Part shown: piece by piece, positions 4,325 to 11,154 of the stretch
How positions within the stretch are numbered: position 1 is the stretch's first letter
How the letters are laid out: every line of letters starts with the position of its first letter
Source of the DNA: an uncultured Fidelibacterota bacterium
Lineage (GTDB): Bacteria > Fidelibacterota > Marinisomatia > Marinisomatales > Marinisomataceae
Length of the DNA stretch: 64,000 nucleotides
Assembly (NCBI GenBank): GCA_902599655.1
Contig: CACKGC010000001.1
Span: 33,570 to 97,569 of the forward strand
Direction of reading: 5' to 3'
The notes under the pieces: generated by a model
Told to the model about the DNA's origin: nothing
The model's database searches: none
The model's input: only the letters and a program-made list of their open reading frames with translations
Translations under genes and position numbers: made by a program

Positions 4325-4999
4325 ATGTCAGCTAAACATCTTTTCCCCATAGCAATGGGTGGTTTTTTCATTTTTTATGTATCACTCATGTTGCGTCAAC
4401 CCTCATTTACATTTCAAGAAGGTGATATTTTTTTTCAAGATCTAGATTGCGGACCACCATGTGACGCAATTGAAGCAGTAACCCAAGGTTATATGGGATC
4501 AAACTTATCTCATTGTGCAATTATAACTGAAGTTGGACCTAATCTTAAAACTACCAAATTAGCTGAAGCTATAGGAGAAACTGTTACAGAAACAACATTA
4601 GAAGAATTCTTAAATAGAAGCAATAAAGTACTTGTTGGAAGACTGAAAAAAGAACATGCTGAATTAATACCAACTGCTCTTAAACACATCAAAGACAATT
4701 TACTTGGGAAACCTTATGATTTTATTTTTGATATCACTGATGATACCTACTATTGTTCTGAAATTATTTATGAAGGATTACAGGTTGCAGATAGTAATCA
4801 ACAAATCATGCAATTAAATCCAATGACATTCAATGAACCTGGTACAAATTCTCCATTTGTGCATTGGATAGAATATTATGAAGAATTAAATCATGAGATT
4901 CCGGAGGGTGAACTTGGATTGAATCCAGGAGGAATGTCTAGATCTGAAGGATTAGATATTATTTATATGTTCGAAAAGCCTTCAGGATATGTCAATTAA
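4325..4999 (+). CDS. YiiX-type permuted papain-fold (NlpC/P60-like) hydrolase, membrane anchored
   Basis: GDIFFQDLDCGPPCDAIEAVTQGYMGSNLSHCAIITEV (His) and YYCSEIIYEGL (Cys), the permuted YiiX/YebB order. Confidence 0.8.
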   Translation: MSAKHLFPIAMGGFFIFYVSLMLRQPSFTFQEGDIFFQDLDCGPPCDAIEAVTQGYMGSNLSHCAIITEVGPNLKTTKLAEAIGETVTETTLEEFLNRSNKVLVGRLKKEHAELIPTALKHIKDNLLGKPYDFIFDITDDTYYCSEIIYEGLQVADSNQQIMQLNPMTFNEPGTNSPFVHWIEYYEELNHEIPEGELGLNPGGMSRSEGLDIIYMFEKPSGYVN

Positions 5000-5751
5000 A
5001 GCTTTGAGACAGTTGTAAGATATAAACAATCTTCACAGTTTGAGTTATTAAAGTCAGGAGCTTCATCTAACTGCAAACAATTATACATCTCTTCTACTTG
5101 CGGTCCTATCCAAGATGTGTCCAATGTAAATGGGACCAAAGTTCTTCTAAAATGCATTTCTCTTCCTAAATGAGGCTTACTTGCATCTCCGTTGTAATAC
5201 ATTAGATATCCAGTTTCAGAAACATCAAAACTATTTTGTTGCAATAACCAACTATAAACTTCTAATTGTCTTTTGTATGACTCCCCATTATTATATACAT
5301 CTGCAGAAGATAAAATATCTGTTTTTTTGGCAGTAGCTTTAAAATCAATAACCACAAGCTTATCTTCTTCATCAATCATGATATCATCAACACCGCCATA
5401 TAATAAAAAATTATGTTTTTCATCATGATATTGAATGCCTGTGAAGGTATGTTGCCACTTTTCAATATCTTCATGTTGGAATGGTTTTATGTTCAATCCA
5501 TTTTCTTTAAAAATACCATGTGGACGATCTTGAGCTCTACAAAAATCCATTTCTTTTTTTAGTAAATCATCTACAGCGCTATTGATTGCCCATCCAGGCA
5601 TGGGTGGTTTTCTCAATCCAAGCTTTGCATCTTTATAAAAACAGGTTGGACAATTAAAATATAGTTCAATTTTTGATCGACTAATTTTGAAGGTCTTATC
5701 AGGATTATATCTCCAATTCTCTCCAACAATAGGATTATATCCATATCCCAT
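4996..5751 (-). CDS. PD-(D/E)XK nuclease, RecB/Cas4-like, with N- and C-terminal Cys pairs
   Basis: ISRSKIELYFNCPTCFY N-terminal motif; GGVDDIMIDEEDKLVVIDFKATAK (D...DFK catalytic core); Q-rich helix YKRQLEVYSWLL; C-terminal NCEDCLY. Confidence 0.8.
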   Translation of the reverse strand: MGYGYNPIVGENWRYNPDKTFKISRSKIELYFNCPTCFYKDAKLGLRKPPMPGWAINSAVDDLLKKEMDFCRAQDRPHGIFKENGLNIKPFQHEDIEKWQHTFTGIQYHDEKHNFLLYGGVDDIMIDEEDKLVVIDFKATAKKTDILSSADVYNNGESYKRQLEVYSWLLQQNSFDVSETGYLMYYNGDASKPHLGREMHFRRTLVPFTLDTSWIGPQVEEMYNCLQLDEAPDFNNSNCEDCLYLTTVSKL

Positions 5752-5765
5752 AATTTGATCTCCTA

Positions 5766-6026
5766 TTATTTTTTAACTGTTATGTCAGCTGTTGCAAGAA
5801 TTTCATTGTAATATTTATAGAACTCTTCTTGATATTTTACCCAATTTCTAAGAGCGGACTTTGCTCTGCTTTGAGCAGATGATTTAAACTTATATTCACC
5901 TTTTTGTGTTCTTAATGATGAACGACCAACAACATCATTCATCTTACAACGCTGATCTCTGCCTCCACCTGGGCAAGGCACCTCAGTTTGTGCATTTAAA
6001 ATTGCTTGTTCTTCTCTATATCCCAT
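5766..6026 (-). CDS. Small uncharacterised protein in the nuclease/KAP cassette
   Basis: 86 aa, CPGGGRDQRC, basic centre; sits 14 bp from the nuclease gene and 18 bp from the KAP gene; aggaga RBS upstream. Confidence 0.55.
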   Translation of the reverse strand: MGYREEQAILNAQTEVPCPGGGRDQRCKMNDVVGRSSLRTQKGEYKFKSSAQSRAKSALRNWVKYQEEFYKYYNEILATADITVKK

Positions 6027-6044
6027 TATATCTCCTTATTAACT

Positions 6045-8135
6045 TTATTTTTTTTCCCACGGTTCTGCTTCACCATGATTTTCTTCGTCATCTGTTTTAA
6101 CAAAAATATTTTTTAGTCGTAAATGCTGACCTCTCTTCTTATCACTAATTGATAGATTGTGGCCATTCTTTGTTGATTCATAACTTTCGTTTACCAATTC
6201 AAAAATAATCCTTTCTCTGTCATTAAAAGCCTTCACACTACCATTTATATCAAAAAATTGGTATCCCCATGGAACTTTGTAAGATTTCATTTTAGGATTA
6301 TACTTTCTGATATCATTAACATTTAACCCATCAATTTTTGGACGAATGAATTCTCTCTTTTTTGCTCTGCTTAACATCATGCCAATAATATTTTCTTTTT
6401 TTTGTTTCCAGATAGCAAAATTTATGAATTTTTTACGATTTACTTTACCGCTAATACCTCCTGTTGGAGAAAAAGTAAATTCAGCATCAGGATATTCTGT
6501 TTTAAACTTGTTATACCACATTCTTAAAAATTCTACTTCCGTATCCGAAATTATCATTGGTTTTTCGCTTTTAACCCCTTGCCTTTTTCCTTCTATCCAT
6601 GCATCAAAATCACCAAAATATGTTTGATATCCACTGCTTTTGTTATCTGATTGTAATGTATCTGATGTAGAAACAGCCGTAACGCCTGTTTTTTTAATAA
6701 CATCCTGCATTTTTTGATCAGTATTTTTTTCTACAAGTATTGTTTTATCAATATAGTTTAATAAACTTGAAATATCTGTCGCTCTTCTTCGATATCTAGG
6801 CTTGATATAACAAACCCTGAAAAGTGCTTGTTCCCAGGAGTCGTTAAACTCTTCTAATTTCATAAATTGTTCAAAATCTTGCTGAAAAGTCTTGGAAAGC
6901 TCCTCATCAATTTCTTCTTTCTTGTGCGTTACTTGAAAAGCTATATCATCATTCCAATCTTTAAAGTTGGGATGTTTCGCCAATAAGTCATAAATATCTG
7001 GATATTTAATCTGTAAACAAACAATAGCAAACATTAGCATATCATCAACAATGTCTTCTTCCCAGCTATCTTTCTGACTACCTTCACCCTCATCTTTTTC
7101 CATACTAGTAAATAGCTCAATTAAAGATAAAGAATTGATTAATCTTTTAATAGACCTTGGATTACTTCCAATAGAATTCCCAAGAATAGAAGTAATAACT
7201 TCATCTAAATTAATAGATACTTCTTCTTTCTTTTTTTTATCATTTTGAATCTCTTTTTTAAACGGAAGCTCTGTCTTACTATCTATATCTATATAATCAA
7301 TATCTTCAAGCAATCCTTTTACATATGAACCTAATTCATATTGTCCGAGAGGCATCATAAATGGCAATTGAATTATCTTGTCGAAGAAAGCTCTAAACTC
7401 CCATTCATTTTCGTCCGTTTTCTTTCCAAATTTTCCTTCCAAACCCTTAATTACTACTTGATAATCAATGGCTAATACAAAAATACAATTTTTTACATCA
7501 AAAATATTCTTGAGGAGCTCTAAGATTTCAACAGCATTTACTGGGTTAATACGATCTAAATCATCAACATATATGACAATTTTATCGGTTGTTCCACTAT
7601 TAACTATTTTTTCAGCGGTTACCTTGAGTCTTGATTTAAGTCTTGCAATAACACTATCATCTTGACCAGAAATTTCGTTAAAAAGATCAACACCTTCTTT
7701 GCCTCCAGCGGCTGAAGCTGCAACTCTGGCAGCTCCCTTTACCAAAGATTTAAAAGTGTTATTAATTTCGGTCTTTTCTTTATTAGGCAAAGCAGATTGA
7801 TTGAGCATATTTTTAATAATCTGATTTACAATTTTTAACAAAGATTCTTCTGGGTTAGATAAAAGAGAATGTTCCCATGCATTTATCCAAATTTGAAGAA
7901 ATTTATCTTTATTTTCTGTGTAGTCTCTATGTTTGCCATCTAGTTGATTTTCTATTTGTCTTAAAAGAGATGTTTTACCGCTTCCCCACTCTCCTTGAAT
8001 ACCAATTGTAAGCGGTGTATCGCAACCAGATATGAAATCGGTCAATGCTTTAGCATGCTTATCAATGCCTAGGGGATTTTTCTCATAATCATCATGAGGT
8101 TGATCAATGATTCCAATAGTTTTATTATCAGTCAT
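6045..8135 (-). CDS. KAP-family P-loop NTPase
   Basis: Walker A GIQGEWGSGKTSLL, Walker B KIVIYVDDLDRINP, NPRSIKRLINSLSL sensor-like motif; extra C-terminal region. Confidence 0.88.
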   Translation of the reverse strand: MTDNKTIGIIDQPHDDYEKNPLGIDKHAKALTDFISGCDTPLTIGIQGEWGSGKTSLLRQIENQLDGKHRDYTENKDKFLQIWINAWEHSLLSNPEESLLKIVNQIIKNMLNQSALPNKEKTEINNTFKSLVKGAARVAASAAGGKEGVDLFNEISGQDDSVIARLKSRLKVTAEKIVNSGTTDKIVIYVDDLDRINPVNAVEILELLKNIFDVKNCIFVLAIDYQVVIKGLEGKFGKKTDENEWEFRAFFDKIIQLPFMMPLGQYELGSYVKGLLEDIDYIDIDSKTELPFKKEIQNDKKKKEEVSINLDEVITSILGNSIGSNPRSIKRLINSLSLIELFTSMEKDEGEGSQKDSWEEDIVDDMLMFAIVCLQIKYPDIYDLLAKHPNFKDWNDDIAFQVTHKKEEIDEELSKTFQQDFEQFMKLEEFNDSWEQALFRVCYIKPRYRRRATDISSLLNYIDKTILVEKNTDQKMQDVIKKTGVTAVSTSDTLQSDNKSSGYQTYFGDFDAWIEGKRQGVKSEKPMIISDTEVEFLRMWYNKFKTEYPDAEFTFSPTGGISGKVNRKKFINFAIWKQKKENIIGMMLSRAKKREFIRPKIDGLNVNDIRKYNPKMKSYKVPWGYQFFDINGSVKAFNDRERIIFELVNESYESTKNGHNLSISDKKRGQHLRLKNIFVKTDDEENHGEAEPWEKK

Positions 8136-8394
8136 TTAATTTTACACGGTAAATGTTAATTTTTTTTTCTTTATTTTTATCATGATGACAAAAGTATAAA
8201 TAACCCTCTTCTCTTTCAATGTTTAATTCTGCAACCAAGACTCCTTTATGATTTGGATTGCGATGTCCCATGATTGTTTCGATGAGATTTCCATCCTTAT
8301 TGATATAGTAAAGTTTGCTAGGTTTTCTAATAACGTCTGTTGAACAAACAAATTCTTTTTGCTTAGAATGATGTTGCTTATTTATACGCTTCAA
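8128..8394 (-). CDS. Small uncharacterised protein
   Basis: 88 aa; overlaps the KAP gene by 8 bp and the upstream gene by 17 bp, supporting translational coupling. Confidence 0.55.
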   Translation of the reverse strand: MKRINKQHHSKQKEFVCSTDVIRKPSKLYYINKDGNLIETIMGHRNPNHKGVLVAELNIEREEGYLYFCHHDKNKEKKINIYRVKLND

Positions 8395-9013
8395 CTTCTA
8401 TTTGGAGTTTTGCGTTTTTATAATGCTCAAAATTGGCCTTGTATTTTAGAGGATTTTTACCACCTGGCGCATCATCGCCTCTTTCTAAATTGCCAGCCTT
8501 ATGCTCATTTCTGGTAATACGACATGTTGCCCACAACCATAAATGATTTGGTAGGAAATCATGAGACATATCTTTGATTGCCTCACGTAAAATTTTTCTA
8601 TTCAAATCCTTGTAATTATCATTTACGCGTTTATCTAATTCATTTTTAACATATTGACCTGTTAAAGTAACTCCTATAATGTGATCACTGGTGGTTTTTG
8701 ATTGTGTTCGATTTGCTCTTTTGCTACTTAATCCAGATCTGAATGGTGTTAAAGTAAATGGCAGTCCGTAATATCCAAGTAGCAATCTTTGGAATTGTTT
8801 AGATCGTGAAGTGTCCTCATTGCTATCTTGGCGATACGCAGATGTAATTTCAGAACTAAAACCAAGATCATACATTCTTCCAGCCGCATATTGAAAAAGT
8901 TTTAGTTCAAAATTATATTTAATTTGCTCTGTGGTATAATTACATCTAGGGAAATTTCCTTCCCAAATTTTTTGAAGATTTTTTTGGGTCAATTCTTGAA
9001 TTTTATATTTCAT
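8378..9013 (-). CDS. Uncharacterised 211 aa protein (speculative HNH-like residues)
   Basis: Uninterrupted ORF coupled to downstream genes; contains SDHIIGVT and LPNHLWLWATCRITRNEHKAGNLER. Confidence 0.6.
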   Translation of the reverse strand: MKYKIQELTQKNLQKIWEGNFPRCNYTTEQIKYNFELKLFQYAAGRMYDLGFSSEITSAYRQDSNEDTSRSKQFQRLLLGYYGLPFTLTPFRSGLSSKRANRTQSKTTSDHIIGVTLTGQYVKNELDKRVNDNYKDLNRKILREAIKDMSHDFLPNHLWLWATCRITRNEHKAGNLERGDDAPGGKNPLKYKANFEHYKNAKLQIEVEAYK

Positions 9014-9019
9014 AGAAAA

Positions 9020-10083: not shown

Positions 10084-11154
10084 CTAATTGGAAAAATTAA
10101 GATAATGGGTAGTCAATGATTTTTCATCATCAGAAGCATAATTTTGATGCCAATTCTTCAGTCTTGGTTCCATTTGTGATTTAGCATAAAACGGGAAAAA
10201 TGTAAAAAGAAGAATATAAGTTAAATAACCAGATGGAAGAACAACCCCTTTATTATCGCATGGATTTAACTCCCAAAATTCCTTTTGAGCATGTACATGA
10301 TGATCTGAATGTCTAGTTAAATTGTAAGTTAAGTAGCTTGTCATTCTATTATTAGAATTCCATGAATGATGATACTGCACTGGTTTTCCTTTGATTCGTA
10401 CCAGTCCATAATGCTCGATAAAATTTGTTAATTGAAAAATGTAATTTGCTACAGTACCCAATGAAATATAAATCACCATTGCTTGCCAACTAAAAAAATA
10501 TCCAATTAATCCAAAAACAATGAAGGTTCTCAAGTAACCATTTAAAATTCTATTATGAAAAGATAAAATGCTTTGTTTTCTTCGCTTTAGTTGTCTGGTT
10601 TCAATTCCCCATGCATGGGAATGTTCTTTAAAAAAAGCTTTGAAAGCAAAACTGATTGGGTTTTCTCCGTAGGTAGCAGTAACAGGGTCTTCTTCAACAA
10701 TACCAATATTCTTATGATGACCATAAACGTGCTCAATTGCAAAAGCAGGATTCCAAGCGGTTGCCAAAGCCCAATTACCTACTTCACAATCAAATTTTTT
10801 GCTTGTTCTATGAACTAATTCATGGCCAATGTTAATTAAGCTGAGTGCCATCAATAGACCCAATATTGGGATATAAAGTAAATAGTACAATTCAAATGCA
10901 CTAGAAACTTTGTCTAGATATAAATATAGCAACATTAAGAATAATGGAACGTTTATAAAGAGTGAAAAATCTAAAAGGAATGGAAATCGATAATGTGGGG
11001 TTGAAATATCATCTCCTAGAGATAATTCACCAACAACAATTGATACCACTACAAGAAAAGCAATTGAAAGTCCAATCCAGCCATCAATTACTAAAGAAAT
11101 TGCCATTAAAAAAAGATAAAAAGGCGTTAAAAAAAATTTTAAATATGATGTCAC
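10084..11154 (-). CDS. alkB: AlkB-type alkane 1-monooxygenase / membrane di-iron hydroxylase
   Basis: His motifs HELVHR, EHVYGHH, RHSDHH plus the AlkB-diagnostic NFIEHYGL. Confidence 0.88.
   Translation of the reverse strand: MTSYLKFFLTPFYLFLMAISLVIDGWIGLSIAFLVVVSIVVGELSLGDDISTPHYRFPFLLDFSLFINVPLFLMLLYLYLDKVSSAFELYYLLYIPILGLLMALSLINIGHELVHRTSKKFDCEVGNWALATAWNPAFAIEHVYGHHKNIGIVEEDPVTATYGENPISFAFKAFFKEHSHAWGIETRQLKRRKQSILSFHNRILNGYLRTFIVFGLIGYFFSWQAMVIYISLGTVANYIFQLTNFIEHYGLVRIKGKPVQYHHSWNSNNRMTSYLTYNLTRHSDHHVHAQKEFWELNPCDNKGVVLPSGYLTYILLFTFFPFYAKSQMEPRLKNWHQNYASDDEKSLTTHYLNFSN

Follow-up and report, generated by a model that had tools for sequence, protein, structure and literature searches.

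A likely defence module centred on a KAP NTPase at an insertion hotspot between an AKR gene and a nuclease gene

Described systems and the KAP locus

KAP proteins are functionally diverse, and to our knowledge little has been learned about defence in streamlined ocean bacteria, whose genomes measure ∼0.7 to 1 Mb in this analysis. Several described systems can be compared with the locus treated here. QatABCD is encoded by a multigene operon that includes QatA, a KAP-family NTPase with a C-terminal domain of its own; QatA is a DNA-binding protein that assembles as a heptamer or an octamer (PMC13279940). In the RADAR system, the AAA+ ATPase RdrA forms a heptamer that docks onto its effector (PMC9994260). 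Tmn is likewise a KAP-family anti-phage NTPase (PMC11846954).

The cassette lies in a window of 64,000 nt, the whole stretch of DNA analysed, from the genome under study (G000; other G-numbers denote comparison genomes and L-numbers extracted loci). It shares with QatABCD a multigene layout and a KAP NTPase with its own C-terminal region, but this NTPase scores far below the QatA equivalog cutoff (NF041923 of NCBIfam, 108.5 versus 600 bits). QatB, the QueC-like QatC, and the TatD-like QatD are absent, and the other four proteins encoded at the locus, that of the adjoining nuclease included, have no Qat profile match. In structure, the KAP model comes closest to the ATPase ring of RdrA, with low TM-scores outside the ATPase core, but the cassette contains no RdrB deaminase and no PADLOC profile match to RdrA or RdrB. 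PifA shares the KAP NTPase domain (PADLOC E value of 6e-32), although the match spans only positions 7 to 315 of the 720 in the profile. The PADLOC profile PDC-S20 is matched at an E value of 4e-31 (positions 11 to 410 of 464), with other KAP profiles matching equally well, and the literature offered nothing informative naming it. The cassette differs from both PifA and PDC-S20 in its small partner gene and its unrelated KAP C terminus. Tmn has two transmembrane domains, whereas the KAP protein of the cassette has none. Genes of type IV restriction islands (McrBC and GmrSD/HEC-05) are recurrent neighbours of this KAP group, but no McrBC or GmrSD-type gene occurs in the G000 cassette. PADLOC recognizes no complete system in the cassette, in agreement with an earlier note on this DNA, which had not recognized the gene order as a named system.

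The insert and its site

The locus comprises the following features.

8378..9013, minus strand: 211-aa orphan protein, first gene of the insert (open reading frame with coding-type GC3 pattern)
8128..8394, minus strand: 88-aa protein with TTG start (open reading frame; two LYYIxxDGN-type repeats)
6045..8135, minus strand: KAP-family P-loop NTPase, 696 aa (Pfam KAP_NTPase, E value of 4.1e-32; Walker motifs)
5766..6026, minus strand: 86-aa degenerate zinc-ribbon-like protein, KAP partner (same family 3' of KAP in G004 and G231)
4996..5751, minus strand: resident Cas4/RecB-like PD-(D/E)XK nuclease, 251 aa, bordering the insert on its downstream side (PDDEXK_1, E value of 4.8e-10)
5752..9019, minus strand: inserted segment of ∼3.27 kb, from the AKR stop to the nuclease start (empty sites in 13 relatives)
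4325-4999, opposite direction to the cassette: convergent YiiX-like gene (YaeF/YiiX C92; profile match)

The five minus-strand open reading frames have the positions, lengths, and spacing given in the earlier note, and profile searches uphold four of its labels for flanking genes: DUF2200, DUF2389 (TIGR02450-like in that note), AKR, and YaeF/YiiX C92. A putative AlkB gene lies at 10084-11154. Codon-position GC marks all five frames as coding (GC3 of ∼0.2 versus GC1 of ∼0.4), most weakly for the 88-aa frame; homologues back the 88-aa, 86-aa, KAP, and nuclease genes as real, and the 211-aa frame has no homologue. The 211-aa gene begins 6 bp after the AKR gene and overlaps the 88-aa gene by 17 bp, which in turn overlaps the KAP gene by 8 bp, so that coupled translation of these three is suggested. 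A gap of 18 bp separates the KAP gene from the 86-aa gene, which has its own AGGAG Shine-Dalgarno site, and a gap of 14 bp leads to the nuclease gene, also preceded by AGGAG. The 3' end of the nuclease gene overlaps the convergent YiiX-like gene by 4 bp. In G012 (L030:6249-6922), the YiiX-like gene is apparently split into two open reading frames of 118 and 95 aa.

The AKR and nuclease genes directly adjoin in 13 relatives from the genus: at ten of these empty sites, the AKR stop overlaps the nuclease start (TAATG) or lies a few bases from it, and the other three are equally tight. The 706-kb, 81.5% complete assembly of G000 carries ∼3.27 kb with four genes, encoding the 211-aa, 88-aa, KAP, and 86-aa proteins, exactly between the two. 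Its close relatives G006 and G018 have flanking proteins with 96 to 99% identity and an empty junction. The clean insertion after the AKR gene proposed in the earlier note is thereby supported by the empty site in at least 13 relatives. The same junction holds a different insert in G010, with ∼2.9 kb of unrelated open reading frames (L031:8256-11129), the four largest of which have no Pfam match. In G004 (L027), it holds a long island with a DUF2779 nuclease, HEC-05/GmrSD, KAP, a 97-aa protein, DUF481, and, at its end, a divergent Cas4-like nuclease. The junction is thus an insertion hotspot in the genus, with three different inserts in three genomes and 13 empty sites. A scan of the insert borders found no direct repeats of at least 8 bp, and no integrase was seen there. 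The composition of the insert gives no sign of foreign origin, its GC content of 0.29 to 0.35 resembling that of the flanks (0.323 for the window).

The nuclease gene next to the insert belongs to the resident gene content of the genus and lies outside the mobile unit. It is present in 20 of the 24 genomes of the genus, G000 included, and in none of the 57 other genomes of the order, and in close relatives without the cassette it is 98 to 99% identical. The description of all five genes as one cassette, as in the earlier note, therefore stands for the four genes inserted together and fails for the nuclease, which was there beforehand; the comparison of conserved against patchy occurrence named in that note splits in the same way, the four genes being patchy and the nuclease not. 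The enzyme has the PD-(D/E)XK core motif (PDDEXK_1, 40.2 bits versus a cutoff of 22), with the sequences GVDD...IDFKAT and RQLEVY and a CxxC at both ends. It falls below the equivalog cutoff for the CRISPR-associated Cas4 (TIGR00372, 29.5 versus 65 bits) and cannot be aligned by BLASTP with the DUF2779 nuclease of SAR86. Through the insertion it now apparently shares an operon with the four new genes, so it has possibly been adopted as the effector of the cassette.

The KAP NTPase and its small partners

The KAP_NTPase domain is matched with 112 bits against a cutoff of 20 (PF07693, E value of 4.1e-32), and the Walker A residues (G48..G51-G53-K54-T55) and Walker B residues (D191-D192-L193-D194-R195) are invariant in eight homologues. 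No transmembrane segment is apparent in the protein, the maximum 19-residue hydropathy being 1.54. The C-terminal region, from about residue 500 to residue 696, is hypervariable: it shows 18% identity between G000 and G004, compared to 59% in the NTPase domain, with 28% versus 81% between G246 and G249 and 49% versus 85% between G390a, from one of two G390 loci, and G288. Searched alone, this region matches no Pfam family. Its fast divergence fits a domain that probably serves recognition or binding of a specific partner. A structure model of the protein (pLDDT of 65) finds its best Foldseek matches in the RdrA rings of RADAR (E value of 6e-7), followed by ORC/Cdc6; with a model of this moderate quality and a TM-score of ∼0.3, the similarity to RdrA extends no further than the ATPase core.

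This KAP subfamily occurs in 3 of the 245 genomes of the phylum (G000, G004, and G231), and distant KAP proteins occur in five more. Relatives with ∼40% identity are found in SAR86 and another gammaproteobacterium, and 8 of 203 genomes from the order of a SAR86 relative carry the subfamily. The patchy distribution looked for after the earlier note is thus found for KAP in both groups. The G000 and G004 proteins group with gammaproteobacterial KAP proteins and not with that of G231 from their own phylum; the branches are long, and the placement of G231 is to be read with caution.

In all three loci of the phylum, the gene directly downstream of KAP belongs to the same small family. The 86-aa protein of G000 is 60% identical to the 97-aa protein of G004 and 35% identical to the 83-aa protein of G231. 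The latter is the least degenerate member, a clear zinc ribbon (CPKC...CRRCG) with weak matches to zinc-ribbon profiles; the G000 protein has lost these zinc ligands and retains two cysteines. No other convincing member was found among the 245 genomes of the phylum, and none was found in viral contigs or in KAP-carrying SAR86 genomes. Weak matches in G094, G014, and G023 (E values of 0.002 to 0.008) were dropped, the first lying inside a 756-aa open reading frame and the others spanning ∼30 residues. The literature offered nothing informative linking KAP with zinc ribbons. The KAP gene of one IMG/VR contig (L093) is also followed by a gene for a small CxxC-rich protein, for which homology to the 86-aa protein is not claimed.

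The family of the 88-aa protein has matches in 22 of the 24 genomes of the genus, nearly every one of which has a short paralogue of 75 to 90 aa with two KGYLYYLxKDGNV repeats (e.g., L076:2754-2981) and no family match above the cutoff. The closest relative (46% identity) is a 185-aa protein encoded directly before a DUF2779-like nuclease, named by reading, in G005. In the G004 island, part of the DUF2779 nuclease also resembles the 88-aa protein (35% identity; E value of 3e-9), so the family is tied to nucleases by relatives beside or within them.

The 211-aa protein matches no Pfam, PADLOC, PHROG, or NCBIfam family. Searches of the 245 phylum genomes, the 203 genomes from the order of the SAR86 relative, phage and plasmid sequences, IMG/VR, and PDB sequences yielded no homologue, and five matches with E values of 0.013 to 0.036 were discarded as chance. 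The four-gene set is accordingly known from one genome only. An AlphaFold model of the protein has a pLDDT of 35.5, too low for use. Its DH...NEHK residues could be read as HNH, but this is not claimed, since the only HNH profile matches in G000 are on another contig. By its position, the protein is a candidate effector.

Gene neighbourhoods and interpretation

Fourteen KAP loci were compared: those of G000, G004, G231, G245 to G249, G288, G381, and G391, two from G390, and one from a Butyrivibrio plasmid. A restriction, nuclease, or defence gene lies close by at 10 of the 14, a raw count taken without a random-gene control and not equal to ten independent events, since several SAR86 loci, including those with KAP and DUF2779, share flanking genes. 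The G004 locus contains HEC-05 of the GmrSD type (E value of 2e-125). The G231 locus has a McrB-like/McrC-like pair, PDC-S11 (E value of 3e-121), and type I restriction genes, McrC and type I being named by reading, and the Butyrivibrio plasmid has McrBC nearby with McrC annotated. A DUF2779 nuclease is found near KAP in G248, G381, and both G390 loci (E values of 1e-38 to 1e-40), and a PvuRts1I-like mREase is found near KAP in G249, G288, and one G390 locus (1e-79 to 1e-82). PD-T4-3 lies near the KAP gene of G288 (7e-29), and a methylase-HNH gene (MTase-HNH) lies near that of G391. At the SAR86 loci of G246 and G247, KAP has no adjacent nuclease. These neighbours support the defence context suggested earlier. 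The divergent Cas4-like nuclease of G004 and the DUF2779 nucleases of SAR86 genomes show that KAP and nuclease genes also co-occur elsewhere. The literature offered nothing informative linking DUF2779 with defence.

Taken together, the four genes likely form a recently gained, horizontally mobile, KAP-centred defence module inserted at the AKR/nuclease hotspot. It is probably a variant of KAP-based defence of a type unnamed in the libraries used, predicted from its sequence to act against phages. Its core would be the KAP NTPase, which by analogy with RdrA (PMC9994260) and QatA (PMC13279940) probably forms rings and associates with nucleic acids, together with the small zinc-ribbon-derived partner. 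The hypervariable C terminus probably recognizes the invader or a partner, and the ATP hydrolysis that follows would serve to load an exchangeable effector or to switch it on. Restriction-type nucleases (GmrSD/HEC-05, McrBC, DUF2779, or PvuRts1I-like) may fill this effector slot at related loci; in G000 the slot may be taken by the orphan 211-aa protein with its 88-aa partner or by the resident nuclease now in the same apparent transcript.

The view of the earlier note, in which five genes form one defence operon with the PD-(D/E)XK nuclease as dedicated effector of KAP, draws on the short distance between nuclease and cassette (14 bp, with the nuclease having its own AGGAG site) and on the company of KAP with a divergent Cas4-like nuclease in the G004 island and with DUF2779 in SAR86. 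It is unlikely, given that 20 of the 24 genus members have the nuclease, nearly unchanged in close relatives without the cassette, and that it fails to align with the SAR86 enzyme; inclusion of the nuclease in the cassette is not upheld. Somewhat better placed, if still rather unlikely, is the reading that KAP and its small partner act alone as an exclusion system resembling PifA or the single-gene KAP type, with the 211-aa and 88-aa genes being an unrelated co-inserted pair such as a toxin-antitoxin-like addiction module. KAP and the small partner are indeed the only part of the G000 cassette shared with G004 and G231, several SAR86 loci (G246 and G247) lack a nuclease beside KAP, and PifA and PDC-S20 are partially matched, but the overlaps of the 211-aa, 88-aa, and KAP genes point to coupled translation, and no toxin or antitoxin family was matched in profile searches.

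Non-defence cargo of a housekeeping, membrane, or replication type, caught in a recombination hotspot, would accord with the functional diversity of KAP, the genus-wide paralogue of the 88-aa family, and an ion channel gene adjoining KAP at one SAR86 locus; the patchy distribution, the occurrence of restriction or nuclease genes near KAP at 10 of the 14 loci, and the lack of a transmembrane segment in KAP make it quite improbable. An extension of the KAP-centred module to a modular platform is put forward only tentatively, with little probability attached: a KAP protein, its hypervariable tail serving recognition and a zinc ribbon serving as adaptor, would drive interchangeable nucleases (GmrSD, McrBC, DUF2779, and here an undescribed 211-aa enzyme family) and could adopt a resident nuclease once inserted immediately 5' of its gene. 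The analysis defines a KAP-NTPase subfamily common to Marinimicrobia and SAR86, with a fixed small partner in Marinimicrobia, a fast-evolving C terminus, and a recurrent link to restriction-type nucleases. It thereby provides specific genes and a specific hotspot for testing.

Further arrangements are seen around related KAP genes. In SAR86, KAP is followed directly by a Cas4-like/DUF2779/RNase H-like nuclease at L105:5847-9444, L107:758-4367, and L108:5150-8765, a candidate two-gene system, and at L047:7998-12278 the ion channel gene stands between the two. At three other SAR86 loci (L045:6493-7965, L046:6513-7946, and L048:6531-7955), KAP is divergent from a conserved protein of 474 to 490 aa that contains CxxC pairs and what looks like a membrane segment; one of the three was tested and has no PADLOC match. 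Similar membrane proteins of 129 to 130 aa are encoded 3' of KAP on an IMG/VR contig (L094:5977-8281) and on the Butyrivibrio plasmid (L078:5950-11713), where McrBC comes next.
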